A stretch of DNA of 32,682 nucleotides, taken from Ruminococcus sp. (lineage in GTDB: Bacteria; Bacillota; Clostridia; Oscillospirales; Ruminococcaceae). Shown one piece after another: positions 288 to 16,126 of the stretch. Location: assembly GCA_017542125.1 (NCBI GenBank), contig JAFXXU010000038.1:1-32682 (forward strand), written 5' to 3'. The notes under the pieces were generated by a model that made no database searches, was not told the DNA's origin, and worked only from the letters and a program-made list of their open reading frames with translations. A program made the position numbers and the translations under genes. Each line of letters starts with the position of its first letter. Within the stretch, counting starts at the first letter, position 1.

Positions 288-875
288 TTATTGCCCGCTT
301 GCGGCGATGATCTCTTCTGCGATCACTCGCTTCGGGACGCATCTGTCCATCGCCAGCTTCTCTATGCTGTGGTGGGCATCCTCTTCGCTTAGGCCTTTCT
401 CGGAGATGAGCAGCCATTTCGCACGGTTCACGAGCCGTATCTCCTGCATCTTATCCTCCAGCTTCACCGAGCGCTTTTCAAGGTTTTTCAGACGCTCGCA
501 GCTGCTCTCCAGCCAGTCGAAGGCCTGGGTGACGAGCTGACGCGGCGAGGGCTTGGGCAGGGTGTAGACCCCGTAGGGACAGACCTGCTCGAAGATCTCG
601 GTGTAGTATTCGTTCCGCACCAGCAGCAGTACCGAGGATCTGCTGCCCTGTGAGCGGTCTATCGCAAAGCGGAGGCCGTCATCGTCCGGCAGGGGAGAAT
701 TCACTATCAGAAAATCATATGCGGCGTCGTTGGCGGTGCGCTTAGCTGCACTTATGCTCTCAACGAGCTCGCTGCGGTAATACTGCCGCTCTGCCAGCAG
801 AGCTTTCAGGGACTCGTTGAATTTCGGCTGCGCCGAGACGGTCAGCACGCTGTATTGCCGTTCTTTAAGCTCCAT
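288..875 (-). CDS. ANTAR-domain antiterminator, NitR/GlnR type (pseudo-receiver + ANTAR)
   Basis: The 195-residue product has an N-terminal receiver-like domain (about 1-110), a coiled-coil linker rich in Leu/Glu/Lys (about 115-140) and a C-terminal ANTAR domain (about 140-192) with the typical pattern VNRAKWLLISEKG followed by a three-helix segment. ANTAR proteins bind paired hexaloop RNA hairpins and prevent formation of an intrinsic terminator. I chose the second ATG (875) because AAGGAG lies 7 bases before it, while the ATG at 881 is only one base from that site. It is the last gene of the nitrogen operon, 55 bases after glnA, like the nitR gene beside glnA in solventogenic clostridia. 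The receiver region keeps few acidic-pocket residues, so classical phosphorylation is uncertain. Likely targets are the hairpins at 7268-7287, 7436-7451 and 7534-7551 (inference). Confidence 0.9.
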   Translation of the reverse strand: MELKERQYSVLTVSAQPKFNESLKALLAERQYYRSELVESISAAKRTANDAAYDFLIVNSPLPDDDGLRFAIDRSQGSRSSVLLLVRNEYYTEIFEQVCPYGVYTLPKPSPRQLVTQAFDWLESSCERLKNLEKRSVKLEDKMQEIRLVNRAKWLLISEKGLSEEDAHHSIEKLAMDRCVPKRVIAEEIIAASGQ

Positions 876-930
876 TGGCATTCTCCTTTCCGGTTCGGAT
901 AACTGCCTGCGGCGGCAGGAAAGCGGCTCG

Positions 931-2139
931 TCAGCCGCAGTAGATACCGATCATTCTCTCGGGCAGACACTCGGCTATGAAGCTGCTGGATGCAGCCGCA
1001 CGCTTGGCCTCCTCGAGAGACATGGGAAGCGTTTCAAAGCCCCGGGTCGCCTGCTCGTCGGCCTTGAAGAGGTCAAGGTCAGCCACGGGCGGGAGGTAGA
1101 GCCCCTTCTTATAGCCGTAGAGGCCTGCATAGATCAGCAGCGTAAAGGCCAGATAGGGGTTCGCTGTGGGGTCGGGGGAGCGGAGCTCTGCACGCCTGTA
1201 CTCGCCTGTTGCGGCGGGGATCCTCACCAGCTGGGAGCGGTTCTCGCCGGACCAGGAGACGAACTTGGGCGCCTTATTGCTGCCGAAGCGGCGGTAGCTC
1301 TGCTCGGTGGGGTTCAAAAACAGGGTCATAGCCTTGATATGTTCAAGTATCCCCGCGATGACCGAGGGCAGTATGATATGGTTCTTATCCTCCTTGACGG
1401 AGATATTTATGTGGAAGCCGTTGCCCGGCTTATCGGCCAGGGGCTTCGGTGAGAAATCAGCGCAGAGGCCGTTCTGATGAGCCACGGTCTTTACCACGGT
1501 GCGGAAGGCCATGGCGTCGTCGGCGGCACGGAGGGCGTCGCCGTAACGGAAATCTATCTCGTTCTGACCCGGCCCCTCCTCGTGGTGGGAGCTTTCGGGG
1601 GAGATGCCCATTTTTTCGAGGGTCAGGCAGATCTGCCTGCGGATGTTCTCGCCCTTATCATCGGGGGCGATATCCATATAGCCTGCGCGGTCATAGGGGA
1701 TGGTAGTGGGGTTATCGTGCTCATCCAGCTTGAAGAGGTAGAACTCCAGCTCAGAGCCGAAGGAGAACTGGAGCCCTTCCTTGGCTGCTTCCTTGACAGC
1801 TCCCGCAAGGAGGCTGCGGGTATCGCACTCAAAGGGCTTGCCGTCGGGCTGCTTTATGGAGCAGAACATCCTTACGACCCTGCCGTGCTCGGGTCTCCAG
1901 GGGAGGACCGAGAGGGTATCGGGGTCGGGGAAGAGCAGCAGATCGGAGCGGGCTTCGTTGGCAAAGCCGCGGACTGCCGAGGCATCGAAGCCGATGCCCT
2001 GCTCAAATGCCCTTTTCAGCTCCGAGGGCATGATAGAGATGTTCTTCTGCCCGCCGAAGGCATCACAGAAAGCGAGGCGTATGAACTTTACGTCCTCCTC
2101 CTGGCAGTATTCGATTATCTCATCGGCTGTGTAGTCCAT
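931..2139 (-). CDS. glnA: glutamine synthetase type I, short form
   Basis: This enzyme joins ammonia to glutamate using ATP. The 402-residue product carries the GS signatures in order: FGSELEFYLF, HHEEGPGQNEIDFRYGDA, GNGFHINIS, the NRSQLVRIP active-site segment and ELRSPDPTANPYLAF. It starts at an ATG 6 bases after GGAGG. Bacterial type I enzymes are usually about 440-470 residues. This one ends at ECLPERMIGIYCG, about where others continue for another 20-40 residues, and the adenylylation tyrosine region is absent. It sits 19 bases after the GXGXG subunit gene, so it is co-made with glutamate synthase, which would use its product. A second, unrelated GS (glnN) lies on the other side of the divergent promoter. 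It could be a glutamine-synthetase-like ligase with another substrate, but the operon favours true GS. Confidence 0.9.
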   Translation of the reverse strand: MDYTADEIIEYCQEEDVKFIRLAFCDAFGGQKNISIMPSELKRAFEQGIGFDASAVRGFANEARSDLLLFPDPDTLSVLPWRPEHGRVVRMFCSIKQPDGKPFECDTRSLLAGAVKEAAKEGLQFSFGSELEFYLFKLDEHDNPTTIPYDRAGYMDIAPDDKGENIRRQICLTLEKMGISPESSHHEEGPGQNEIDFRYGDALRAADDAMAFRTVVKTVAHQNGLCADFSPKPLADKPGNGFHINISVKEDKNHIILPSVIAGILEHIKAMTLFLNPTEQSYRRFGSNKAPKFVSWSGENRSQLVRIPAATGEYRRAELRSPDPTANPYLAFTLLIYAGLYGYKKGLYLPPVADLDLFKADEQATRGFETLPMSLEEAKRAAASSSFIAECLPERMIGIYCG

Positions 2140-2158
2140 ACGGTACCTCCGTTATCTG

Positions 2159-2878
2159 TCAGTTTGCGACATACATCTGTCGGTAGGGGTTGCTGCTGTC
2201 TGGCGTTACCACGGTAAAGGGTGCGTCCAGCAGCTCATCCAGCTTATGGCCGAAATAGAAGCAGAAGCGCCTCAGATAGTGGGCGATCTCTTCAAGATCC
2301 TCGCTGCCGGCGGGGCGGGTGTGGACCTGGTGAGGGAAGTGGATCCCCTTGCATTCGGAGCGAAGATACATCTTGCCGCCGTGCATACCCGTGGTTGGGA
2401 AGTTGCCGACTATGGGCTTGCCGTCGGTATTGAGACCGAGGACGATGATGACTCCGCCCGCCTGATATTCTCCGAGAAAGCTGCCGGCTCTCCCTCCTAT
2501 AACGAGGGCGGGCTGCTTTTCCTTATAAGCCTTCATATGTATTCCTGCGCGGTAGCCTGCGTTGCCCTGGACGTAGATACGTCCGCCGCGCATTGCGTAA
2601 CCCACAGCGTCACCCACATTGCCGTGGATGACGATGGTGCCGTCGTTCATAGTATCGCCCACGGCGTCCTGGGCGTTGCCCATTACCTCGATCTTGGCGC
2701 CGTTGAGGTAGGCGCCCAAAGCGTTGCCGGGTATCCCGCTGACGGTGACGGTCTTATCGGAGATGCCTGCGGCTAAAAACCTCTGCCCCAGGCAGTCGGT
2801 GATAGTGCAGCTCCCGCGGGCTGCTCTCAGGGTCTCGTTGAGCTCGCGGTAATCGAGCCCTGTTGCATTTATGTTCAT
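2159..2878 (-). CDS. glutamate synthase GXGXG (beta-helix) subunit
   Basis: The 239-residue protein matches the C-terminal right-handed beta-helix domain of glutamate synthase large subunit, here as a free polypeptide. Repeated glycine turns are visible (GNALGAYLNGA, GNAQDAVGDTM, GNVGDAVGYAMRGG, GNAGYRAG), followed by GGKMYLRSEC and an HKLDELL segment. In fused GltB this domain packs against the synthase domain and supports the ammonia channel. The related FwdC subunit of formylmethanofuran dehydrogenase shares the fold, but the neighbouring synthase and glutaminase genes settle the role. The ATG overlaps the stop of the FAD gene by one base (TAATG), and GGAGG lies 9 bases before it. Confidence 0.9.
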   Translation of the reverse strand: MNINATGLDYRELNETLRAARGSCTITDCLGQRFLAAGISDKTVTVSGIPGNALGAYLNGAKIEVMGNAQDAVGDTMNDGTIVIHGNVGDAVGYAMRGGRIYVQGNAGYRAGIHMKAYKEKQPALVIGGRAGSFLGEYQAGGVIIVLGLNTDGKPIVGNFPTTGMHGGKMYLRSECKGIHFPHQVHTRPAGSEDLEEIAHYLRRFCFYFGHKLDELLDAPFTVVTPDSSNPYRQMYVAN

Positions 2879-4113
2879 TATACCACACCTCCCAGCTTTT
2901 TGCTACGCTTTTCAGCAGAAAAAATTGCCAATGAGGGAAATTTTTTCATTTCCGCAATACTTTCTTCATCAAGTTCGGTCTTTTCACGCACCAGAGAGGT
3001 ATAGACGCCTGCGCGGCACACATCACCGATGAGCATATAGCCGCAGAGCCTGCCTTCCTTGATGAACAGCCTTTTGATACCGCCCTCGGTCTTCTGCTGG
3101 CTCATCTCGGCGTCCTCGGGGTAGCTGCCCGCAGTGGCGCAATGGAGGCCGAAGAAGCCGATGGAGTTCATAGGCACGGCGTTATCGAAGACCTCGGAGC
3201 CGCCTGCCATATTCACGCCGGCGCAGTGGCCCTGCATATAGGCGTTGGGGAGTATGGCGAGGACGCGGTTCTGGCCGATGGAGCTGTCAAAGCCCTCGGC
3301 GCAGTCGCCGGCGGCGAAGATATCAGGGGTGGTGGTGCGCATATCCGTGCCCACCACGATGCCTCTGTTCACCTTGCAGTCAGCCTGCTTTGCAAGCTCG
3401 GTCTCGGCTCTTACGCCCACAGCCAGCACCAGGATGTCAAACTCAACCTCGGCTCCGCTCTTCATAAAGGCCTTGCTGCCCTCGAAGCGGACGGCGGTGT
3501 CTCCCAGCATAAAGGAGATGCCGTTTTCTTCCAGCCTGTGCTGCATAAGAGCGGCACACTCGCTGTCGAGTATGGAGGAGAGGACTCTGTCAGCCAGGTC
3601 GCAGACGGTGATGCTGCCAACTCTTTCGGCGATGCCCTCGGCGCATTTGAGGCCGATAAGACCTGCGCCCACGATCAGTACCCGGGCGCTCTTATCGAGA
3701 GCCTTTTCAAGAGCCAGGCTGTCGTCAAGGGTCATAAAGGTGAACTTCTTCTCCACCGTATCCAGCCCCTCAAAGGGAGGAACGAAGGGGGATGAGCCGG
3801 TGCAGAGGCAGAGCTTATCGTAGAAGAGGCGCTTCTTGTTTTCAAGTGTTACCGACATCTTCTTGGTATCGACTTTAACGGCTCTGCCGTATATCAGGTT
3901 GACGTTGTTTTTCTCGTAGAAATCCTCGGGGCGGTAGCGCATTTTTTCAAGGGTGGTCTTGCCCTCGAGGTAATAGGAGATGAGTGGGCGGGAATAAACG
4001 TGGTGCTCCTCCCCGGAGACCACGGTGATATTGCCGTCGGGGTCGGTGCTGCGGATGCCCTCGATGCAGCCCACAGCTGCCGTGCCGTTACCGATGATTA
4101 GATATTCAGCCAT
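2878..4113 (-). CDS. NAD(P)/FAD-dependent oxidoreductase subunit of the split glutamate synthase
   Basis: The 411-residue product is a two-dinucleotide-domain flavoprotein of the nitrite-reductase/rubredoxin-reductase kind. The FAD-binding GNGTAAVGC lies at the N-terminus (about residues 8-16), a second nucleotide motif GAGLIGLKCAE near residue 150, and the FAD ribityl motif IFAAGDCAEG near residue 270. It probably passes electrons from NAD(P)H through the ferredoxin subunit to the synthase. I chose the ATG at 4113, 8 bases after GAGAGG. A GTG at 4122 would overlap the ferredoxin stop as GTGA but sits only 2 bases from AGGAG. The protein is not the usual GltD small subunit, which has its own N-terminal Fe-S domain. 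Here that function is on a separate gene. Confidence 0.87.
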   Translation of the reverse strand: MAEYLIIGNGTAAVGCIEGIRSTDPDGNITVVSGEEHHVYSRPLISYYLEGKTTLEKMRYRPEDFYEKNNVNLIYGRAVKVDTKKMSVTLENKKRLFYDKLCLCTGSSPFVPPFEGLDTVEKKFTFMTLDDSLALEKALDKSARVLIVGAGLIGLKCAEGIAERVGSITVCDLADRVLSSILDSECAALMQHRLEENGISFMLGDTAVRFEGSKAFMKSGAEVEFDILVLAVGVRAETELAKQADCKVNRGIVVGTDMRTTTPDIFAAGDCAEGFDSSIGQNRVLAILPNAYMQGHCAGVNMAGGSEVFDNAVPMNSIGFFGLHCATAGSYPEDAEMSQQKTEGGIKRLFIKEGRLCGYMLIGDVCRAGVYTSLVREKTELDEESIAEMKKFPSLAIFSAEKRSKKLGGVV

Positions 4114-4118
4114 CTCTC

Positions 4119-4547
4119 TCACCTCTCCTCATAAACTATGGCGTTGTTGGGGCAGCCCGCAGCGCAGGCGGGAGCTCCGCAGCTGTTCTCGAGACAGAGC
4201 TCGCATTTCTGAGCTGCGCCGGAGGGTCCGGGAGCTACTGCTCCGTAGGGACATACCAGCACGCAGGTCAGGCAGCCGACGCATTTCTCACGGTCTATCT
4301 TGACGGTGCCGTCCACCTTGGAAATGGCTCCGGCGATGCAGCTCTTTACGCAGATAGGGTCGGTGCAGTGCCGGCAGGAGACGGCGTAATGGATCTTTCC
4401 GCTGTCCTCGACGTGGATCCTGGGGAATATGGGCTTGTCCCTAAGAGCCTTGGCCATATCCGAGAGCCCGGAATTGGCGAAGGCGCAGTTGTATTCGCAG
4501 AGATGACAGCCCAGACACCACTGCTCGTTTACATATACTCTTTTCAT
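4119..4547 (-). CDS. four-cluster 4Fe-4S ferredoxin subunit
   Basis: The 142-residue protein holds 17 cysteines in four groups: C11/14/17/21, C58/61/66/70, C89/92/95/99 and C115/118/123/128/132. This is the HycB/DmsB-type layout that binds up to four [4Fe-4S] clusters. No signal peptide or membrane segment is seen, so it is cytoplasmic. It lies between the synthase gene (14 bases upstream in the operon) and the FAD oxidoreductase gene (5 bases downstream), so it probably wires the flavoprotein to the synthase. The start has AAGGAGG about 9 bases before it. Similar proteins serve formate dehydrogenases and aldehyde oxidoreductases, and use with another partner cannot be excluded. Confidence 0.9.
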   Translation of the reverse strand: MKRVYVNEQWCLGCHLCEYNCAFANSGLSDMAKALRDKPIFPRIHVEDSGKIHYAVSCRHCTDPICVKSCIAGAISKVDGTVKIDREKCVGCLTCVLVCPYGAVAPGPSGAAQKCELCLENSCGAPACAAGCPNNAIVYEER

Positions 4548-4561
4548 AGTGATGTCCCTCC

Positions 4562-6067
4562 TTATTCGCCTGCGTGGGAGATACCCAGTATCGAAAGCTC
4601 TTTCTCGGTGAGGCCCACGCCGCGGAGCATCAGCCTGTTGCCGCGGAGGCTCTCGATGGAGTTGATACCCATACCGCCCATGAGCTCCTTGATCTCGTGC
4701 CTCCAGGCGTCCATAAGATTGACCAGCCTGCGGGAGCCCATATCCGGGTTGAGGCGCTTAACAAGCTCGGGATCCTGGGTGGCTATGCCCCAGTTGCACT
4801 TGCCGCTCTGGCAGGTGCGGCAGAGGTGGCAGCCCAGTGCCAGCAGAGCAGCGGTAGCCACATAGACTGCATCGGCACCCAAAGCTACTGCTTTTACCAC
4901 ATCCGCTGCCGAGCGGACGCTTCCGCCCACTACGAGGGAGACGTTATTGCGTATGCCCTCGTCACGGAGGCGCTGATCGACGGAGGCGAGAGCCAGCTCG
5001 ATGGGTATGCCCACGTTGTCCCTGATACGGGTAGGGGCGGCGCCGGTGCCGCCGCGGAAGCCGTCGATGGCGATTATATCCGCGCCGCTGCGGGCGATGC
5101 CGCTGGCGATAGCTGCGATGTTATGGACAGCCGCTACCTTTACGATAACGGGCTTTTTGTACTCGGTGGCTTCCTTGAGGGAGAACACCAGCTGCCTCAG
5201 ATCCTCTATGGAGTAGATATCGTGGTGAGGTGCGGGAGAGATAGCGTCGGAGCCTTCGGGGATCATACGGGTGCGGGAAACGTCGCCCACGATCTTGGCA
5301 CCGGGAAGATGCCCGCCGATACCGGGCTTTGCTCCCTGACCCATTTTGATCTCAACGGCAGCCGCAGCCTCGAGATAATCCTTGTGAACGCCGAAGCGCC
5401 CCGAGGCTACCTGTACCACGGTATTGGGGCCGTAAACGTAGAAGTCCTCGTGGAGACCGCCCTCACCGGTGTTGTAGCAGATGCCCAGCTCGGTAGCCGC
5501 TCGCGCCAGAGAGGCGTGGGCGTTGTAGCTGATGGAGCCGTAGCTCATAGCCGAGAACATTACGGGCATCGAGAGCTCCAGCTGGGGGGCGATCTCGGTG
5601 ATGAGCTCGCCGTTGGCATTGCGCCTGATCTTATCCGGCTTCTTGCCTAAGAACACCTTGGTCTCCATAGGCTCGCGGAGGGGGTCTATGGGAGGGTTTG
5701 TTACCTGGGAGGCATTTATCAGTATCTTGTCCCAATACACGGGCAGGGGCTTGGGGTTGCCCATGGAGGACAGCAGCACGCCGCCGCTGTTGGCCTGCTT
5801 GTAGATCTCCTTGATGGTCTCGTCAGACCAGTTGGCGTTCTCACGGAGGCGGCAGTCGCTCTTGACTATTTTCAGCGCGTGGGTGGGGCAGAGGGAAACG
5901 CACCTCTGGCAATTGACGCACTTTGCCTCGTCCGAGATCATTATGCCCAGATCGGGGTCGAAGCGGTGTACCTCATTGGCGCACTGCCTTTCACAGACGC
6001 GGCATTTGATGCAGCGGTTCTCGTTGCGAACCACCTCAAATTCGGGATATATGTAATGCTCCTTCAT
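4562..6067 (-). CDS. gltB: glutamate synthase, FMN/Fe-S synthase subunit with N-terminal ferredoxin domain
   Basis: The subunit makes glutamate from 2-oxoglutarate and channelled ammonia. The 501-residue protein starts with two CxxCxxCxxxC clusters (C19-C29 and C50-C60). An FMN-binding TIM barrel follows, with MSYGSISYNAHASL, NTGEGG, KMGQGAKPGIGG and IDGFRGGTGAAPT, and then the Fe-S motif GCHLCRTCQSGKC near residue 415. This is the short, archaeal-type synthase. The glutaminase and beta-helix domains fused in proteobacterial GltB are encoded separately here. The ATG overlaps the preceding stop by one base (TGATG), which fits translational coupling. Confidence 0.95.
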   Translation of the reverse strand: MKEHYIYPEFEVVRNENRCIKCRVCERQCANEVHRFDPDLGIMISDEAKCVNCQRCVSLCPTHALKIVKSDCRLRENANWSDETIKEIYKQANSGGVLLSSMGNPKPLPVYWDKILINASQVTNPPIDPLREPMETKVFLGKKPDKIRRNANGELITEIAPQLELSMPVMFSAMSYGSISYNAHASLARAATELGICYNTGEGGLHEDFYVYGPNTVVQVASGRFGVHKDYLEAAAAVEIKMGQGAKPGIGGHLPGAKIVGDVSRTRMIPEGSDAISPAPHHDIYSIEDLRQLVFSLKEATEYKKPVIVKVAAVHNIAAIASGIARSGADIIAIDGFRGGTGAAPTRIRDNVGIPIELALASVDQRLRDEGIRNNVSLVVGGSVRSAADVVKAVALGADAVYVATAALLALGCHLCRTCQSGKCNWGIATQDPELVKRLNPDMGSRRLVNLMDAWRHEIKELMGGMGINSIESLRGNRLMLRGVGLTEKELSILGISHAGE

Positions 6068-7158
6068 CAGAACTTGCCCTCCTTGACTCTGACGATTACC
6101 GGTTCTCCGCCTGCGGGTGCGTAGAGGTTCTCGGCGTCGGGCTCCATGACCCTGATCGCAGCCTCTTCGCTGGCGATGAATACCTTATCGTTCTTTTCGG
6201 CAGTGACCATACTGCGCAGCTTTAAGCGGTCGTTTAATGCCATAAGGCCGCCGTTCCAGCCGTAGACTATGGAGAAAGGCCCGGTTATCAGCAGGCTGGG
6301 GAACACCGTCCGCAGGAATGTGAGCTTCTCCTTTTCCTTCTCGGGCTTGGCGTTGATCGTTGACCAGAAGGGCGCCGCGATGACTGAGGCTGCCTCCTCT
6401 AAGGTAAGACCCTGACGGCGCAGCAGATAGTCTAAGATGTAGGTGATGACCTCGGTATCTGTCTGCAGAGTGCATTTGTAGCCGAACATCTCTATATAGC
6501 GGCGGTTGGCATCGTAGGAGGATATCTCGCCGTTATGGACTATGGATGAATCCAGCAGGGAGAAGGGGTGAGCGCCGCCCCACCAGCCGGGGGTGTTGGT
6601 CGGGTAACGGCCGTGAGCCGTCCAGGAATAGCCCTCGTACTCTTCAAGGCGGTAGAAGACTCCCACGTCCTCGGGGTAGCCCACAGCCTTGAAGCAGCCC
6701 ATATTCTTACCGCTGGAGAAGACGTAAGCGCCGTTCATCTCGGTGTTGATCTTCATAACCGTGCGGGCGGTGAACTCGTTTTCATCCACCTGCTCGGAGG
6801 CCATTACCGAGGTGAGGGGAGCGCAGAAGTAGCGCCAGATGATAGGCTCGTCGGTGATCTGGGGGATCTTGCGGGTGGGTATCAGCTCGCCCTTGACTAC
6901 CTCGAACCTTTCCTTTAAATAAGCCTCGCACTCCTTGCGGGTGGAGCGGTGGTCGAAGAAGATGTGGAAAGCGAACAGATCCTTGTATTCGGGATATATG
7001 CCGTAGGCGGCGAAGCCTCCGCCCAGACCGTTTGAACGGTCGTGCATGGGCTTCATCGAGTTGTAGATGACATCACCCGTAATGCCCTTGCCGTCCCTTG
7101 ATATCACAGCCGCGATCGCACAGCCTGACGGTATGCGAACCTCGCCCTCTCTTTTCAT
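6067..7158 (-). CDS. glutamate synthase glutaminase subunit (class II amidotransferase)
   Basis: This 363-residue protein is the Ntn-hydrolase part of glutamate synthase, releasing ammonia from glutamine. Visible features are a cysteine near the N-terminus (SGCAIAAVIS), HGRYPTNTPGWWGGAHPF, the oxyanion-hole segment HNGEISSY and TDTEVITYILDYLL. I placed the start at the ATG at 7158 because AAGGAG lies about 9 bases before it. The longer frame to 7239 adds 27 unlikely residues that run through the leader terminator. It is the first gene of the operon. The nucleophilic cysteine is not directly after Met as in PurF or AsnB but a few residues inside, as is usual for the archaeal-type stand-alone subunit. 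Confidence 0.92.
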   Translation of the reverse strand: MKREGEVRIPSGCAIAAVISRDGKGITGDVIYNSMKPMHDRSNGLGGGFAAYGIYPEYKDLFAFHIFFDHRSTRKECEAYLKERFEVVKGELIPTRKIPQITDEPIIWRYFCAPLTSVMASEQVDENEFTARTVMKINTEMNGAYVFSSGKNMGCFKAVGYPEDVGVFYRLEEYEGYSWTAHGRYPTNTPGWWGGAHPFSLLDSSIVHNGEISSYDANRRYIEMFGYKCTLQTDTEVITYILDYLLRRQGLTLEEAASVIAAPFWSTINAKPEKEKEKLTFLRTVFPSLLITGPFSIVYGWNGGLMALNDRLKLRSMVTAEKNDKVFIASEEAAIRVMEPDAENLYAPAGGEPVIVRVKEGKF

Positions 7159-7207
7159 AGCGTTCACTCCTTGATATAAATGTACATTGAATAACAGCTT
7201 CAGAAAA

Positions 7208-7276
7208 TAAAAAAAGCGTACATTCCACCGACCCATCACGCAAAACCCGCAGAATGGGGAGATATGGAATGAACGC
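7208..7276 (-). terminator. leader terminator (attenuator) of the glutamate synthase operon
   Basis: On the minus strand, 7265-7276 pairs with 7216-7227 in 11 of 12 positions, and a T-rich run follows (complement of 7204-7215). It lies between the promoter and the first gene, so transcription must read through it. Its ascending arm shares bases with the hexaloop hairpin at 7268-7287, so the two structures exclude each other. Confidence 0.85.
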
Positions 7277-7287
7277 CATTGCTCATT
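7268..7287 (-). promoter_or_regulatory. candidate ANTAR target hairpin in the glutamate synthase leader
   Basis: Read on the minus strand, AAUGAGC and GUUCAUU form a 7-bp stem (one G-U pair) around the hexaloop AAUGGC. ANTAR targets are described as hairpins with six-base loops having A at loop position 1 and G at position 4, and this loop fits. It begins at about the predicted transcript start. The 3' arm and part of the loop are also the ascending arm of the following terminator. I did not find a clear second hexaloop hairpin before the terminator. Confidence 0.65.
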
Positions 7288-7294
7288 TGCAAGT

Positions 7295-7323
7295 ATTATA
7301 TCCTAAAAATTCATTTCTGTCAA
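7295..7323 (-). promoter_or_regulatory. sigma-A promoter of the glutamate synthase operon
   Basis: On the minus strand a perfect TTGACA (7318-7323) is followed after 17 bases by a perfect TATAAT (7295-7300). The start of transcription should be near 7288, giving a leader of about 130 bases. It points away from the glnN promoter at 7397, so the two nitrogen units are divergent. Confidence 0.92.
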
Positions 7324-7396
7324 TAGAATTATGCAAGTTTGTGAAAATAATGCAAGATTTGTTGTGAGATTATGCAGATATTTGTCGGAAACGTAC

Positions 7397-7425
7397 TTGA
7401 CAAAGTCAAAAAGATAGTGTATAAT
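7397..7425 (+). promoter_or_regulatory. sigma-A promoter of glnN
   Basis: TTGACA at 7397-7402 and TATAAT at 7420-7425 are both perfect and separated by 17 bases. Transcription should start near 7432, leaving a leader of about 190 bases with two terminator-like hairpins. Because both divergent promoters are consensus, control is expected after initiation. Confidence 0.92.
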
Positions 7426-7435
7426 ACAAAGCATA

Positions 7436-7451
7436 GAGGCAAGGACGTCTC
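7436..7451 (+). promoter_or_regulatory. candidate ANTAR target hairpin 1 in the glnN leader
   Basis: GAGGC and GUCUC form a 5-bp stem (one G-U pair) around the hexaloop AAGGAC, with A at loop position 1 and G at position 4. It starts a few bases after the predicted transcript start. The loop and 3' arm overlap the ascending arm of the terminator at 7440-7491. A second stem (GCACC/GGUGC, 7457-7471) follows, but its loop is five bases (GAUGA), so the second half of a canonical pair is doubtful. Confidence 0.65.
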
Positions 7452-7491
7452 CCAGGGCACCGATGAGGTGCAGGGCGTCCTTGTCTTTTTT
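7440..7491 (+). terminator. first leader terminator (attenuator) before glnN
   Basis: CAAGGACG (7440-7447) pairs with CGTCCTTG (7476-7483), with further pairing inside, and TCTTTTTT follows. It lies about 130 bases before the glnN start codon, between promoter and gene, so it should stop most transcripts unless antitermination occurs. Confidence 0.88.
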
Positions 7492-7533
7492 GGTTGTTAT
7501 ACTTTTATTACAGCCTTTTTCGATATTTTTGAT

Positions 7534-7574
7534 GGGGGCAAGGGCGTCTCCGGTAAGGGATAGTGATATCGCTT
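7534..7574 (+). promoter_or_regulatory. candidate ANTAR double hairpin (second set) in the glnN leader
   Basis: GGGGGC and GUCUCC pair (two G-U pairs) around the hexaloop AAGGGC at 7534-7551. A few bases on, GAU and AUC at 7559-7570 close a second hexaloop, AGUGAU, with a weaker extended stem across a G-G mismatch. Both loops have A1 and G4. The pair matches the two-hairpin layout of known ANTAR targets. An alternative fold of the second part is AGUG/CGCU around AUAU. The first hairpin overlaps the following terminator arm. Confidence 0.55.
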
Positions 7575-7597
7575 TATCGGAGGCGCCCGAGCTTTTA
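7542..7597 (+). terminator. second leader terminator-like hairpin before glnN
   Basis: GGGCGTCTCCG (7542-7552) pairs over 11 positions, one of them G-U, with CGGAGGCGCCC (7578-7588). The tail is GAGCTTTTA, a short T-run, so it may be a weaker terminator or a pausing structure. It ends about 20 bases before the glnN ribosome binding site. Confidence 0.65.
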
Positions 7598-7620
7598 GAT
7601 CACGAACGGAGGAAAAAACA

Positions 7621-9717
7621 ATGAGTAAGGTAACAGAGATCTTCGCAAGCAACGTATTCGATGACAGAGTAATGAAATCAAGGCTTTCGGCCAAGGTATA
7701 TAATTCACTTAAGAATACCATTGACCTCGGCACAAGGCTCGACCCGTCGGTGGCCGATGCGGTAGCCGAGGCTATGAAGGAGTGGGCAGTTGAAAAGGGA
7801 GCCACACATTATACTCACTGGTTCCAGCCCCTCACCGGCATCACTGCCGAGAAGCACGACAGCTTCATCTCCCCCTCGCCGGACGGCAGAGTTATCATGG
7901 ACTTCTCCGGCAAGGAGCTCATCAAGGGTGAGCCTGATGCATCCTCATTCCCCTCCGGCGGACTGAGAGCTACCTTTGAGGCCAGAGGCTACACCGCCTG
8001 GGATCCTACCTCCTACGCCTTCATCAAGGGCAAGACCCTTTGCATCCCCACAGCCTTCTGCTCCTACGGCGGAGAGGCTCTCGACAAGAAGACCCCGCTG
8101 CTGCGTTCCATGCAGGCACTCAACAAGCAGGCACTGCGTATCCTCAAGCTCTTCGGCAACGATACGGTAAAGCACGTTTCCACCTCGGTAGGACCCGAGC
8201 AGGAATACTTCCTTATCCCCCAGGAGCTTTACGATAAGAGAAAAGACCTTATTTATACAGGGCGCACACTTTTCGGTTCCAAGCCCCCCAAGGGCCAGGA
8301 GATGGACGACCACTATTTCGGCGTGATCAAGCCCAGAGTTGAGGCTTATATGACCGACCTCAACGAGGAGCTCTGGAAGCTGGGCATCCTTGCCAAGACA
8401 CAGCATAACGAGGTGGCTCCCGCTCAGCACGAGCTGGCTCCCATCTACGCTACCACAAACATCGCCACCGACCACAACCAGCTGACCATGGAGATCATGC
8501 AGAAGGTTGCCAAGAAGCACGGCCTTGTCTGCCTGCTCCACGAGAAGCCCTTCGCAGGGGTGAACGGCTCCGGCAAGCACAACAACTGGTCTATCTCCAC
8601 TGATACCGGCGTTAACCTGCTGACTCCCGGCGAGACCCCCTACGAGAATGCACAGTTCCTGCTGTTCCTCTGCGCAGTTATCAAGGCTGTTGACGATTAT
8701 CAGGATCTGCTCCGTATCTCTGTTGCCACCGCAGGCAACGATCACCGTCTGGGTGCTAACGAGGCGCCTCCGGCAGTTATCTCTATCTTCCTCGGCGAGG
8801 AGCTGGAGGGCATCCTGAAGGCTATCGAGACCGATACTCCCTATGAGGGCATCGAGAAGAAGGTAATGAAGCTGGGCGTAAGCGTTCTTCCCAGATTTAC
8901 CAGAGACACCACCGACAGAAACAGGACCTCGCCCTTCGCCTTCACCGGCAACAAGTTCGAGTTCAGGATGCTGGGCTCTTCAAACTCCATCGCCTGCGCC
9001 AACATCATGCTCAATGCTGCTGTTGCAGAGAGCCTGAAGATCTACGCCGACCGTCTTGAGGGTGCTGAGAACTTTGAGGAAGCTCTCCACCAGATGATCA
9101 AGAAGACCATCACCGATCACAGAAGGATCATCTTCAACGGCAACGGTTATGACGATGCCTGGATCAAGGAGGCCACCGAGGTAAGAGGTCTGCTGAACTA
9201 CCGCACCACTCCCGATGCTATCCCTCACCTGATGGATGAGAAGAACGTTAAGATGCTCACCGAGCACAAGGTCTTCTCCGAGGAGGAGCTCCGCAGCCGT
9301 ACCGAGATCACCCTTGAAAACTACTGCAAGGCTGTTGTCATCGAGGCTAACACCATGGAGCAGCTGGCCCGCAGAGAAATCCTCCCCGCTATCGAGGAGT
9401 ATGCGGCATTCGTTGCCAAGACCGCAAATGCCAAGAAGTCCTTGGCTACCGACCTGGCCTGCACCTACGAGACCGAGACTGTCAAGAAGCTCTCGCAGCT
9501 GGCATCCGACGCTTACAAGAGCCTTGACAAGCTGGCTGCCGCTTTGGTAAAGGTACAGGGCGCAAAGGACGTTATCGAGGAAGGCTATCTTATCAGAGAC
9601 GAGCTGCTGGGAGTAATGGACGAGCTCCGTGCCTCCTGCGATGAGGCGGAGACCATCACCGCTGCTAAGTTCTGGCCGTTCCCGACCTATGACGAGCTGC
9701 TTTTCGGAGTACGCTGA
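7621..9717 (+). CDS. glnN: glutamine synthetase type III
   Basis: The 698-residue product is a full-length GSIII, the large glutamine synthetase family typical of Bacteroidetes, cyanobacteria and gut firmicutes. It shows GPEQEYFLI, the [14 protein letters not shown] segment, [24 protein letters not shown] and the [11 protein letters not shown] stretch. GGAGG lies 8 bases before the ATG. It stands divergent to the glnA-containing operon and has its own promoter and attenuated leader. It is followed by asnB after 82 bases. Having GSI and GSIII side by side suggests different affinity or conditions of use, possibly tuned by the same ANTAR protein (inference). Confidence 0.97.
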
Positions 9718-9744
9718 ATATAATAACATACCAACAGGAGCTGT

Positions 9745-9770
9745 GGCTGCCGTAGAATTATGCGGCAGCC
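9745..9770 (+). promoter_or_regulatory. GC-rich hairpin in the glnN-asnB gap
   Basis: GGCTGCCG and CGGCAGCC form a perfect 8-bp stem with a 10-base loop. The following GAGTTCTGTTTG is only mildly T-rich, so this could be a weak terminator that lowers asnB expression, or an mRNA processing or stability element. No promoter is evident after it. Confidence 0.5.
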
Positions 9771-9799
9771 GAGTTCTGTTTGATACAGGAGGAATTATT

Positions 9800-11377
9800 A
9801 TGTGCTGCATAATGGGCTGGTGCTCACCGAGAGCCGATATGGGGCTGATGAGGGAGTGCTTTGAGAGAACGAAGTCGAGAGGCCCCGACGATACCCGATT
9901 TGCTGAAACGCCGGGAGGCATCCTGGGGTTCCACCGCCTTTCGATAATGGGTCTTACCCCCGAGGGTATGCAGCCCTTTGAGCTTGACGGCAGCTTCGTT
10001 GTCTGCAACGGCGAGCTCTACGGCTTTGAGGCTCTGAAAGAGGAGCTGATAAAGAAAGGCTATACCTTTAAAAGCGGCTCCGACTGCGAGATACTTCTTC
10101 CCCTGTGGAAGGAATACGGAGCGGAGATGTTTGCAAAGCTGGATGCGGAGTTTGCCTGCGTGATCTACGACGGGCAGACGGGCAGGTTCATCGCCGCCCG
10201 TGACCCCATAGGCATCCGTCCCCTTTACTACGGCTATGATAAGGAGGGCAGCCCGGTATTCGCCAGCGAGCCCCAGAACCTTGTTGGCATCGCTGACAAG
10301 ATAATGCCGTTCCCTCCGGGGCATTACTATGACGGGGAGCTCCACTGCTACAACGACATCGCACACCCGCAGAGCGTTTGCTATGACACCCATGAGGAGA
10401 TCTACAAGAACATCCACGACAAGCTGGTGGAGGGCGTAAGAAAGCGGCTGATCTCCGATGCAAAGGTGGGCTTCCTGCTTTCGGGCGGACTTGATTCCTC
10501 ACTGGTATGCGCTATCGCTCAGAAGTATTCCGACAAGCCTATCCGCACCTTTGCCATCGGTATGAGCGAGGACGCCATAGATCTGAAATACGCCAAGCAG
10601 ACCGCCGACTATATCGGATCGGAGCACACAGAGGTCATCATCACCAAGGATGACGTTATCGGGGCTCTGGAAGAGGTCGTCCGGCTGCTGGGGACCTTTG
10701 ATATAACCACCATTCGTGCCAGCATCGGTATGTATCTGGTCTGCAAGGCTATCCACGAGCAGACGGATATCAGAGTTATCCTCACCGGTGAGATCTCGGA
10801 TGAGCTCTTCGGCTACAAGTACACCGACTTCGCACCCTCGGCAGAGGAGTTCCAGAAGGAAGCCGAGAAGCGCATCCACGAGATACATATGTACGACGTT
10901 CTCCGGGCCGACAGGTGCATCTCGGTAAACTCTCTGGAAGCGAGAGTACCCTTCGGCGATCTGGACTTTGTGGAATACGTTATGGCCATAGACCCGGAGA
11001 AGAAGCTGAACACCTACGGCAAGGGCAAGTATCTGCTGCGCCGCGCCTTTGAGGGCGATTATCTCCCCCACGACATCCTTTACAGAGAGAAGGCTGCCTT
11101 CTCCGATGCGGTGGGGCATTCGCTGGTAAACTACCTCAAGGCCTATGCCGAGGAATACTACACCGATGAAGAATATGAGACCCTGCGTCAGAAATACACC
11201 CACGCCCAGCCCTTTACCAAGGAGTCGCTGCTTTACAGAGAGCTCTTTGAGAAATACTATGCAGGCCAGGGCGAGATGATCAAGGACTTCTGGATGCCCA
11301 ACAAGTCCTGGGAGGGCTGCAACGTCAACGACCCCTCAGCCCGTGTGCTCTCAAACTACGGAGCAAGCGCGGTGTAA
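9800..11377 (+). CDS. asnB: asparagine synthetase, glutamine-hydrolysing
   Basis: The 525-residue enzyme makes asparagine from aspartate, ATP and glutamine. I set the start at 9800, after AGGAGG, because the protein then begins Met-Cys-Cys. Removing Met exposes the Cys nucleophile of the class II glutaminase, as in AsnB proteins. The glutaminase part shows SRGPDD, HRLSIMG and VCNGELYG. The synthetase part begins near residue 215 with the PP-loop LLSGGLDSSLV and later has LTGEISDELFGY and VPFGD. A longer frame to 9629 only reads backwards through glnN. Slightly shorter than E. coli AsnB (554). It lies between glnN and pyrG on the same strand. Confidence 0.95.
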   Translation: MCCIMGWCSPRADMGLMRECFERTKSRGPDDTRFAETPGGILGFHRLSIMGLTPEGMQPFELDGSFVVCNGELYGFEALKEELIKKGYTFKSGSDCEILLPLWKEYGAEMFAKLDAEFACVIYDGQTGRFIAARDPIGIRPLYYGYDKEGSPVFASEPQNLVGIADKIMPFPPGHYYDGELHCYNDIAHPQSVCYDTHEEIYKNIHDKLVEGVRKRLISDAKVGFLLSGGLDSSLVCAIAQKYSDKPIRTFAIGMSEDAIDLKYAKQTADYIGSEHTEVIITKDDVIGALEEVVRLLGTFDITTIRASIGMYLVCKAIHEQTDIRVILTGEISDELFGYKYTDFAPSAEEFQKEAEKRIHEIHMYDVLRADRCISVNSLEARVPFGDLDFVEYVMAIDPEKKLNTYGKGKYLLRRAFEGDYLPHDILYREKAAFSDAVGHSLVNYLKAYAEEYYTDEEYETLRQKYTHAQPFTKESLLYRELFEKYYAGQGEMIKDFWMPNKSWEGCNVNDPSARVLSNYGASAV

Positions 11378-11413
11378 AACCTATCGAAAACTGACCCATC
11401 AAAAATATCTTAG

Positions 11414-14446
<3,033 letters not shown>

Positions 14447-14460
<14 letters not shown>

Positions 14461-15634
14461 TATGAATTATTCCCACTTAAAGGACTCATACCTCTTTTAC
14501 AATATCGCTCAGAAGGTAAAGGCTTATCTGGAAGAGCACCCGGATGCCCACATCTACCGCCTCGGCATCGGAGACGTTTCGCTGCCGCTCTGCGACGCTG
14601 TCATCAAGGGGCTCCATCAGGCAGCTGAGGATCAGGCTGATGCAGCCACCTTCAACGGCTATATGCCCGAATGCGGCGCACCCTTCCTCAGGACCGCTGT
14701 AGGGGATTACTACCGCGGCAGGGGAGTGCAGGTGGCTGACGATGAGGTGTTCATCTCCAGCGGAGCTTCCGACGAGCTGGGTGACATCCTTGACCTCTTT
14801 GACAGAGTGAACCGCTCGCTCATCATCGAGCCTGCTTACCCCGCCTACGTTGACGCCAACATTATGGGCGGCAGGGAGATCGTTCACCTGCCTTCCTCCC
14901 GGGAGAACGGCTTCCTGCCCCTGCCCGATGAGAGCACCGAAGCAGAGCTTATCTACCTCTGCTCGCCAAACAACCCTACGGGTGCAGTGTTCAGCCGTGA
15001 GCAGCTGAAAAAGTGGGTGGATTTTGCCAACGCCCACGGCTCGGTGATCATCTTCGATGCGGCATACGAGGCCTTCATCGAGGACGAAAGCCTGCCCCAT
15101 TCCATATTTGAGATCGAGGGCGCCCGCACCTGCGCCATCGAGATCTGCTCACTCTCCAAGACGGCGGGCTTCACCGGCACGAGACTTGGATATACGGTCA
15201 TCCCGAAGGAGCTTGAGCGCTGCGGCATGAAGCTGAACGATATGTGGATCCGCTGCCGCACCACCAAGACCAACGGCGTATCCTACGTTATCCAGAGGGC
15301 GGCGCTGGAGGTCTTCACCCCCGAGGGTCAGAAGCAGATACACGCCAACATCGACATCTACAAGAACAATGCCCGCACACTTATGAAGGCTCTGGACGAG
15401 CTGGGCATCTGGTACACCGGCGGAAAGAACGCGCCTTACATCTGGCTGCGCTGCCCCAACAATATGGGCAGCTGGGAGTTCTTTGACTTCCTGCTGAACG
15501 AAGCCCAGATCGTGGGCACCCCCGGCGAGGGCTTCGGACGCTGCGGCGAGGGCTACCTGCGGTTCTCCACCTTCGGCAGTCCCTCGGAGACGGAAAAGGC
15601 TGCGGAGAGGCTGGTCGCTCTGCTCAAAAAGTGA
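14447..15634 (+). CDS. dapL: LL-diaminopimelate aminotransferase
   Basis: The 395-residue PLP enzyme matches the DapL family, which turns tetrahydrodipicolinate directly into LL-diaminopimelate with glutamate as amino donor, for lysine and cell wall. Evidence is the N-terminus (NMNYSHLKDSYLFYNIAQK), RLGIGDVSLPL, the SPNNPTGAV motif and the PLP lysine in SLSKTAGFTGTRLGY. AAAGGAG lies 7 bases before the ATG, inside purF. It ends the nitrogen-using operon, just before a strong terminator. Glutamate as donor links it to the upstream ammonia-assimilation genes. Confidence 0.92.
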
Positions 15635-15688: not shown

Positions 15689-15717
15689 TTGACAAAGAAG
15701 CAATTATATGCTATCAT
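15689..15717 (+). promoter_or_regulatory. promoter of the metal-resistance operon
   Basis: TTGACA (15689-15694) and TATCAT (15712-15717) are separated by 17 bases. The -10 box overlaps the edge of an inverted repeat that resembles an SmtB/CadC operator, so repressor binding would block the promoter. Confidence 0.85.
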
Positions 15718-15718
15718 A

Positions 15719-15732
15719 TGAATAGATGTTCA
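15719..15732. promoter_or_regulatory. candidate SmtB/CadC-type operator
   Basis: TGAATA-GA-TGTTCA is an inverted repeat with five of six positions matching, like the TGAACA-N2-TGTTCA sites of ArsR/SmtB family repressors. It lies directly after the -10 box. A second inverted repeat, TACAT-TAT-ATGTA (15749-15761), lies further into the leader and may be another site. Confidence 0.65.
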
Positions 15733-15790
15733 AGTGTTGTTAGAAATATACATTATATGTAAGTAATACAAGACTGTGCGAGGTGATAAA

Positions 15791-16126
15791 ATGACAGAGG
15801 AAGCCTACAACAGAAACATTGTGGATAAGCTCCGCACCGAAATGCCCGACGATGAATCCCTCTACGATCTTGCCGAGCTGTTCAAGGTCTTCGGGGACAC
15901 CACAAGGATACGCATTCTCTACGCGCTGCTGGAAAGCGAGCTTTGCGTGGGGGATCTGGCGGATTTCCTGGGGCTTACACAGACCGCCTGCTCACATCAG
16001 CTGAGAGTGCTGAAAAACAACAAGCTGGTAAGGTTCAGGCGCGAGGGTAAGGCGATGATCTATTCTCTTTCCGACGACCACGTTAAGTCGATACTGGAAA
16101 AGGGGATGGAGCACGTTGAGGAGTGA
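15791..16126 (+). CDS. ArsR/SmtB-family metal-sensing repressor
   Basis: The 111-residue winged-helix protein resembles SmtB/ZiaR, with ELCVGDLADFLGLTQTACSHQLRVLK as the DNA-binding region. The last helix carries D95, H97, H108 and E111 in the DxHx10HxxE pattern, the alpha-5 zinc-type site of SmtB and CzrA. It should leave DNA when it binds Zn, Cd or Co. The start is the ATG at 15791 after AGGTGA. A GTG at 15776 lacks a good binding site. It is the first gene of an operon with a methyltransferase and, after a repeat insertion, a metallochaperone and a P1B ATPase, which fits autoregulated metal export. Confidence 0.93.
   Translation: MTEEAYNRNIVDKLRTEMPDDESLYDLAELFKVFGDTTRIRILYALLESELCVGDLADFLGLTQTACSHQLRVLKNNKLVRFRREGKAMIYSLSDDHVKSILEKGMEHVEE

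Follow-up and report, generated by a model that had tools for sequence, protein, structure and literature searches.

Candidate single-hexaloop ANTAR targets in the divergent glutamate synthase and glnN leaders of a Ruminococcus species and related Clostridia

How might two divergent sets of nitrogen genes be governed from the few hundred nucleotides that part them? The stretch of Ruminococcus sp. DNA that we analyzed (32,682 nucleotides; ‘the window’) contains two transcription units, delineated by open reading frames and Pfam matches, that run away from each other on either side of positions 7160–7620. On the minus strand (931–7158) are gltB1 (the glutaminase part of glutamate synthase), gltB2 (the synthase part), genes for a ferredoxin-like protein and a pyridine-nucleotide oxidoreductase, gltB3 (the GXGXG part) and glnA; the last gene in this operon (288–881, minus strand) encodes an ANTAR regulator with a pseudo-receiver and a C-terminal ANTAR domain. 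This order, from gltB1 to the ANTAR gene, is repeated in many related loci, and the gene spacing suggests that the ANTAR gene is carried on the gltB transcript. On the plus strand is glnN (7621–9717; Pfam GSIII_N and Gln-synt_C), which encodes a type III glutamine synthetase.

Two divergent leaders with three hairpins

An initial annotation of the window had proposed three hairpins with the loops AAUGGC, AAGGAC and AAGGGC, and we find all three at the coordinates claimed. Its placement of both leaders downstream of consensus promoters is equally accurate: TTGACA-17-TATAAT is matched at 12 of 12 positions, with a 17-nt spacer, both for the glutamate synthase operon (7295–7323, minus strand) and for glnN (7397–7425, plus strand). 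The hairpin of the former leader (AAUGAGC-AAUGGC-GUUCAUU; 7268–7287, minus strand) is at the predicted 5′ end of its RNA. The first glnN hairpin (GAGGC-AAGGAC-GUCUC; 7436–7451, plus strand) lies 10 nt past the −10 box; the other (GGGGGC-AAGGGC-GUCUCC; 7534–7551, plus strand) makes a second module, presumably on the same transcript. This second hexaloop is inconstant among the five nearest relatives compared, since it was not found in two of them (L002, L004); L003 has it with four pairs, and it also occurs in L074 and L142.

Folded by themselves, the three hairpins do form but are unremarkable against shuffled sequences (−5.9, −5.6 and −8.5 kcal/mol for 7287–7268, 7436–7451 and 7534–7551; z from −0.7 to −1.4). 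When downstream sequence is included in the folds, longer terminator-like hairpins win, and each takes up the 3′ arm of a hexaloop hairpin, so that the sharing of bases with a terminator, another element of the initial annotation, is recovered for all three. On the minus strand, a terminator hairpin with a U tract (7209–7277; −32.3 kcal/mol, z −3.2) reuses the 3′ half of the loop together with the 3′ arm. On the plus strand, the first hexaloop is overlapped by a terminator with a U tract (7438–7491; −32.5 kcal/mol, z −4.9), and the second by a terminator-like hairpin (7542–7597; −43.1 kcal/mol, z −7.0) whose U tract is weak (GAGCUUUUAG). A simple terminator scan reported pieces of the first plus-strand terminator only, and neither of the other two.

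We also noted several features of the plus strand beyond glnN. Behind it, in a row, are asnB, pyrG, purF and an aminotransferase gene (9800–15634; open reading frames, gap sequences and Pfam), and all of the genes from glnN to the aminotransferase (7621–15634) are separated by short gaps or overlap. These four genes are possibly on the attenuated transcript of glnN; such an arrangement may join glutamine synthesis to three glutamine-using enzymes. Inside the genes of the row there are weak plus-strand promoter-like matches of 9/12 at 11232–11260, 10/12 at 14799–14826 and 9/12 at 15024–15051. The gap between glnN and asnB holds a strong hairpin (9744–9771; 11 pairs, a loop of 6 that is not of the A1/G4 kind, and a poor U tract) that might be a partial terminator or a processing site. 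Farther on, a pair of near-consensus promoters that face opposite ways, matching at 11/12 and 10/12, overlap at 15689–15732, just before a gene for an ArsR-family regulator (15776–16126).

Conservation of the hexaloop and its terminator

At the level of sequence, a chance origin of these hairpins is excluded by comparison across genomes, and not from the window alone. Our sample comprised the window, 80 genome loci matched through glnN and 30 stretches around related ANTAR genes or matches to a strict sequence pattern; the locus titles name Ruminococcus, Lachnospiraceae, Oscillospiraceae, Christensenellaceae and other Clostridia. From these we took 95 glnN and 68 gltB1 upstream regions no shorter than 150 bases (protein identity of 55% or more and 45% or more, respectively), kept without redundancy removal; in their last 150 nt, 93 of the 95 and 67 of the 68 are distinct. 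A core hexaloop, defined as C-AANG..-G with a second pair of G·U, A-U or G-C and a stem of at least four pairs, is present in 92/95 glnN and 65/68 gltB1 regions, as compared to dinucleotide-shuffle means of 1.65 and 0.35. The proposal that both divergent leaders carry hexaloop elements of the ANTAR type is thereby borne out. The enrichment is peculiar to the loop letters: in 77 glnN regions there are 122 hairpins with A1/G4 hexaloops versus a mean of 5.5 in 50 shuffles (22 times), while the other three classes of loop letters reach 1.4 to 1.8 times their shuffles.

The position of the element is equally constrained. For this count we retained the 77 glnN and 60 gltB1 regions that have a promoter of at least 10/12 (18 and 8 regions, respectively, were dropped) and searched for the core CANNGNNG at 12–32 nt past the −10 box, the stem playing no part in the choice: it occurs in 71/77 glnN and 58/60 gltB1 regions, and pairs 2, 3 and 4 then form in 70, 70 and 71 of the 71, and in 57, 58 and 58 of the 58. 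A displaced control, with the core at 45–72 nt past the −10 box, returned 4 glnN and 2 gltB1 regions. A swapped-loop control (CGNNANNG, 5–32 nt past the −10 box) matched 0/60 gltB1 but 20/77 glnN regions; bearing in mind that the bare core pattern is therefore nonspecific in glnN leaders, it is the stems and the shuffles that carry the case there. The stem starts 6–11 nt past the −10 box in 118 of 127 leaders (at most seven pairs counted; two of the 129 leaders, with one-pair stems, were set aside), which puts the hairpin at about +1, the predicted 5′ end of the RNA.

Covariation was analyzed on 79 distinct 20-nt rows (80 were found; the L012 glnN row, with a one-pair stem, was dropped), in which 88.6% of the cells of the stem are paired. 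Compensatory changes, the lack of which among relatives had been named in advance as grounds for rejecting the hairpins, are present: both sides are changed in 122 cells versus 57.4 in shuffled rows (0/500 as high) and 2–17 in slid controls, and the covariation score is 0.556 versus 0.065–0.192 in the latter. Pairs that show any change on both sides are no more numerous than in shuffles (5 versus 4.9). Much of the covariation is a difference between two leader types, AAUGAGC/GUUCAUU before glutamate synthase and UAAAGGC/GUCUUUG before glnN, whose loop and top two pairs are the same, the compensated differences being at pairs 3–5; fewer changes are seen within a type. The search itself required a C-G closing pair; next to it, G·U is found in 117 of 129 hairpins, A-U in nine and G-C in one.

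Conservation of the loop, too, had been put forward as a check, and it was found: among 125 hairpins with a G-C/G-C core, collected without requiring the letters, A1 is present in 115 and G4 in 112. The further suggestion that AANGRC is a recognition code stands in part. That consensus fits 113/129 promoter-proximal loops, but close relatives have AAAGGA, AAAGAG and AAGGAU; the portion that holds is AANGR, with A2 in 128/129 and a purine at position 5 in 129/129. Even these letters need not be a protein code, since many of the terminators take the 3′ half of the loop into their own pairing.

The overlap with a terminator is likewise general. The 3′ arm of the hexaloop is predicted to participate also in a downstream hairpin with a U tract in 53/57 gltB1 leaders (that of the window, 7209–7277, among them) and 46/60 glnN leaders; with shuffled downstream sequence this falls to 51/570 and 69/600, or about 10%. 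These counts omit leaders with stems of fewer than four pairs, namely one gltB1 leader and 11 glnN leaders, the window's glnN leader included. A recount over all regions, made without a shuffle control, gave a terminator and U tract for 58/65 first gltB1 modules, 67/92 first glnN modules and 43/55 later glnN modules. The folds thus predict that the last hairpin and an intrinsic terminator are mutually exclusive, as is expected of an ANTAR target.

Might these observations be explained without an ANTAR protein? The dyad at +1 to +20 could be a DNA operator for a repressor or an activator, the hairpin being a by-product of its palindrome; a near-perfect inverted repeat, just downstream of strong promoters and strongly conserved in sequence within each leader type, is what one would then anticipate. 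However, the G·T that lies beside the closing pair in the 117 cases noted above pairs in RNA and breaks a palindrome in DNA. Furthermore, the half-sites, which a DNA-binding protein would be expected to keep, differ between leader types while the asymmetric loop and top pairs are shared; the 3′ arm is reused in terminators, and later modules are, with one exception, at least 54 nt behind the first. We judge an operator to be very improbable. A metabolite riboswitch, or the use of the hairpin by some other RNA-binding protein, strikes us as scarcely credible: the regulated genes are mostly related to glutamine or glutamate, as in some riboswitch regulons, but the conserved part is about 20 nt, the leader to the start codon is short and leaves little room for an aptamer, and Rfam searches at gathering and permissive thresholds gave nothing relevant in the window or in the leaders of the ten related loci that were searched whole. 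Moreover, A1 and G4 in a loop closed by a C-G pair constitute the ANTAR-target signature as published in the accessible text of PMC3369931 and PMC7496416.

One hexaloop per terminator

An ANTAR target of the classical, dual-hexaloop type has to be weighed as well, in which two widely spaced hexaloops, or those of two divergent nascent RNAs, would act as P1 and P2. Two or three hexaloop modules do occur in 48 of the 95 glnN leaders (41 and 7, respectively). Among loci with both leaders, the hexaloops are divergent and within 1.2 kb of each other in 36/42, and in 30 of these they are 105–183 nt apart, which (as at 7268–7451) would place two nascent hexaloops side by side; one dimer could in principle touch both, and the EutV dimer in its crystal is described, in the accessible text of PMC8934654, as contacting the hexaloops of two RNA molecules. 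On the other hand, a single module is what we find in 60 of the 68 gltB1 leaders (five have two and three have none) and in 44 of the 95 glnN leaders (three have none). Apart from one pair only 16 nt apart, consecutive loops lie 54 nt or more from each other, and as far as the available portions of the two reports go, EutV tolerates much less: the linker is 5–12 nt, EutV induction is drastically cut by one of 3 or 14 nt (Ramesh 2012, PMC3369931), and a 20-nt extension abolishes antitermination in vitro (Walshe 2022, PMC8934654). In addition, single leaders stand before other genes: glnA (L149), gltB (L162), a glutamate dehydrogenase gene (L166) and an aminotransferase gene (L165). A dual target is, in our estimation, unlikely.

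Nor does a nearby partner hairpin come to light. Within 32 nt past the hairpin, 7/57 gltB1 and 4/60 glnN leaders contain another A1/G4 hexaloop with a stem of at least three pairs, no excess over seven other pairs of loop letters (5–10 and 2–17, respectively), and a P1 upstream of a hairpin that is itself 5′-terminal would need to be encoded inside the promoter. Of the features by which Ramesh 2012 defined ANTAR targets, these leaders show the hexaloop with A1 and G4, and lack P1 plus P2 with a short linker.

As regards precedent, the closest is EutV/EutW and the eut leaders of Enterococcus faecalis, which, from the accessible text of PMC3369931 and PMC8934654, share with our leaders the A1/G4 hexaloops and a last hairpin whose 3′ arm is common to an intrinsic terminator; the eut leaders have two hairpins joined by a short linker, whereas ours have one at the very 5′ end. 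Deletion of P1 is described there as lowering EutV-dependent induction in vivo (PMC3369931), and full binding of EutV as needing both stem-loops (PMC3369931; PMC8934654). For NasR and the nasF leader, in the portion of PMC7496416 available, in vitro selection gave a C:G closing pair with A1/G4, as here, but full affinity needs two hairpins, single P2 being bound weakly (about 12 μM), and NasR has a nitrate sensor domain in place of a pseudo-receiver. Our literature search, which covered main texts from largely open-access sources, returned no description of a single-hexaloop leader or of a glnN/gltB leader.

The system as predicted here is of an ANTAR-target type already known, in a single-hexaloop form that is widely conserved in gut and rumen Clostridia; relative to the published tandem-hexaloop targets, the predicted architecture is new, with one hexaloop per terminator and no room for P1. 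The dual motif of published genome searches would not be expected to find such leaders, to judge from the accessible descriptions of that motif. The accessible text of PMC8934654 asks why two hairpins are needed, expects single hexaloops where the timing of transcription is irrelevant, and calls for bioinformatic work on them. The 104 natural single-hexaloop leaders reported here (44 glnN and 60 gltB1; 101 distinct in their last 150 nt), typically inside a predicted attenuator, make that question, as posed there, directly testable.

The ANTAR regulator, its candidate regulon and a proposed mechanism

In the genome to which the window belongs (2.9 Mb, 90.5% complete) we found one ANTAR gene, that at 288–881, and ANTAR-type targets in this genome are therefore most likely its targets. 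Its product has an ANTAR domain (PF03861) at 56.4 bits (Pfam cut-off 27.3), while its Response_reg match, at 23.9 bits, is under the cut-off of 30.2. We aligned it with the proteins from the 81 loci, of 89, that gave a match (82 sequences in all, without redundancy removal). The phospho-acceptor site is Asn (N61) in 77/82, and S16, at a position that is acidic in ordinary receivers, is found in 75/82; the phospho-acceptor Asp and acidic pocket of an EutV-type response regulator are thus absent. At the sites by which EutV contacts RNA, K155, E166, H170 and M178 (EutV K149, E160, Tyr164 and Met172) are invariant in 82/82, so that the ring residue that stacks on G4, here His rather than Tyr, and the Met plug are both retained. 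The positions of EutV K143 and K147 are Arg or Lys in 81/82 and 79/82, but that of R142 is Ile in 80/82 and that of R168 is Glu in 78/82. The recognition surface is predicted to be unlike that of EutV, perhaps in a way that may enable the use of a single hairpin.

These features set the subfamily among its relatives. EutV is, according to the accessible text, similar in being a response-regulator-like protein with a C-terminal ANTAR domain and a nitrogen theme, and different in being activated by phosphorylation, for which the subfamily's acceptor residue is mostly unsuited (Asn for Asp, as above). A receiver that is devoid of the acceptor Asp would probably get its signal through a partner or a ligand, not by phosphorylation. 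AmiR of Pseudomonas aeruginosa (PDB: 1qo0) also combines a pseudo-receiver with an ANTAR domain and has His at the aligned G4-stacking position; it differs in serving an amidase operon, and its RNA is counted among dual-hairpin targets. AmiR is controlled by its partner AmiC (from the accessible part of PMC8934654), and the resemblance suggests AmiR-like partner control of the present subfamily. By gene context, being encoded alongside the genes for glutamate synthase and glutamine synthetase, the regulator also resembles NitR of Clostridium acetobutylicum and Clo1313_2030 from the GS-GOGAT cluster of C. thermocellum (PMC4676874), which the accessible text of that study proposes as an ammonia-sensitive antiterminator, describing no RNA target. 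We noted, too, that the window's GlnA (931–2139, minus strand), at 402 aa, is a short protein whose scores fall under the curated cut-offs for glutamine synthetase equivalogs, and that glnA directly precedes the ANTAR gene in those compared loci that show both; GlnA could be the sensor partner of the ANTAR protein.

To extend the comparison we used R1, a 20-nt covariance model, which was scanned over 148 genomes of the same family. In the window's own genome, the three hairpins rank 1, 2 and 4 (28.0, 20.0 and 18.9 bits; E-values 2.8e-4, 0.093 and 0.20) for 7268–7287, 7534–7551 and 7436–7451, respectively; two of them were in the training set of R1, the one outside it being that at 7533–7552. 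Because the model is small and its matches are widespread (some match at E up to 0.5 in 145/148 genomes), we used it only to ask how far 150 listed places lie from ANTAR genes: 42 of these have an ANTAR gene no farther than 12 kb away, where about 1.5 were expected, and 39 of the 42 are upstream of it, in a comparison that left out the ten weakest ANTAR rows and is partly non-independent, some of these leaders having trained R1. We inspected 14 R1 places. Eleven are no more than 12 kb from an ANTAR gene and belong to genomes that supplied no training stretch; eight of these 11 combine a nearby promoter of at least 9/12 with an overlapping terminator, which those in G110, G075 and G136 do not. 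Sequence patterns were set aside. The strict pattern matched 20/148 genomes and missed the window's own genus, because the stems have drifted there; a looser pattern gave 13 matches in the window's genome, below its reversed control (21). Of its ten extra matches, two have stems of 5 and 6 and are coding by eye, and eight have stems of 3–4; no U tract was seen in the inspected flanks of the ten.

Eight further hexaloops in relatives hint at the breadth of the regulon. In six of them, a promoter that matches at 9/12 or better lies close upstream and a terminator overlaps the hairpin; the genes behind these leaders are, by Pfam, CTP synthase, pyrG (L157, L147, L163), a glutamate dehydrogenase type (L166), a class IV aminotransferase (L165) and a full-length-type glutamate synthase (L162). 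At L155 there is a promoter, with no terminator and no Pfam match, and at L168 neither promoter nor terminator; by eye, a pyrG-like start follows the leader of L294. Of 12 glnA regions with a promoter, 3 have a hexaloop and nine have none; the three are those of L143, L149 and L064, where a glnA-ANTAR unit with its own promoter has its own hexaloop leader. These units favor the earlier suggestion that the regulator, encoded in an operon that it would control, is autoregulated. The claim that the ANTAR protein controls both operons of the window gains support from the comparison, given the sole ANTAR gene found and the hexaloops that overlap terminators in both leaders.

The distribution of ANTAR genes is of limited help in this respect. 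Among the genomes of the loci, 71/76 have ANTAR, including those of searched loci without the motif, and hence its presence cannot separate glnN loci with the motif from those without. No ANTAR match was obtained in 5/76 (L012, L032, L033, L036, L074), where the hexaloop is present and assembly incompleteness may be responsible. Across the 148 genomes, a strong ANTAR orthologue (at least 145 bits) and a best R1 E-value of at most 7e-4 are associated (18/19 versus 2/129; Fisher test), as could be explained by shared descent alone. One genome, G079 (88% complete; L300, L165), carries a strong gltB-type hexaloop leader and another hexaloop before an aminotransferase gene, and neither protein nor Pfam search found an ANTAR gene in it; there is either an assembly gap or another reader of the hairpin.

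Drawing on what sequence comparison establishes (the hairpins, their position and covariation, the terminator overlap, the single-hexaloop layout, the one ANTAR gene found and the residues of its product), we consider it highly probable that each leader acts as an attenuator, its one antiterminator hairpin being held by the ANTAR protein; binding, antitermination, the signal and autoregulation are what we infer. Transcription would start at a strong promoter, and the first ~20 nt would fold into the hexaloop, with its C-G closing pair, usually a G·U next to it, and the loop AANGRN. Left to itself, this hairpin would lose its 3′ arm to pairing with downstream sequence in an intrinsic terminator, so that at low protein activity terminators would form and transcription would stop after about 60–80 nt. 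At high activity, the ANTAR protein, most likely bound as a dimer to a single hexaloop, would hold the first hairpin as soon as polymerase releases it; with the terminator thereby blocked, polymerase would read through into gltB-glnA-ANTAR or glnN. A 5′-terminal hairpin and long terminator arms may give the protein time to bind without a recruitment hairpin. In the glnN leader, two modules in series would make for steeper control, and from its place at the end of the gltB operon the ANTAR gene would regulate itself. Nitrogen or glutamine status is the probable signal, with a partner protein or a ligand to convey it.

Many gut and rumen bacteria have an ANTAR regulator gene together with glutamate synthase, and for this regulator we offer a candidate RNA target and a candidate regulon, which would amount to control of their ammonium assimilation. 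On balance we lean towards a broader proposition: that a single 5′-terminal hexaloop is enough for cotranscriptional ANTAR antitermination across a large part of the Clostridia, its reader being an ANTAR subfamily with a pseudo-receiver, which, by way of a partner, senses glutamine or ammonium and governs together the makers of glutamine and glutamate (gltB, glnA, glnN and, in relatives, glutamate dehydrogenase) and the users of glutamine (pyrG in relatives). If this is true, P1, which does the recruiting in the EutV model, could be dispensed with wherever polymerase makes the hairpin before anything else.
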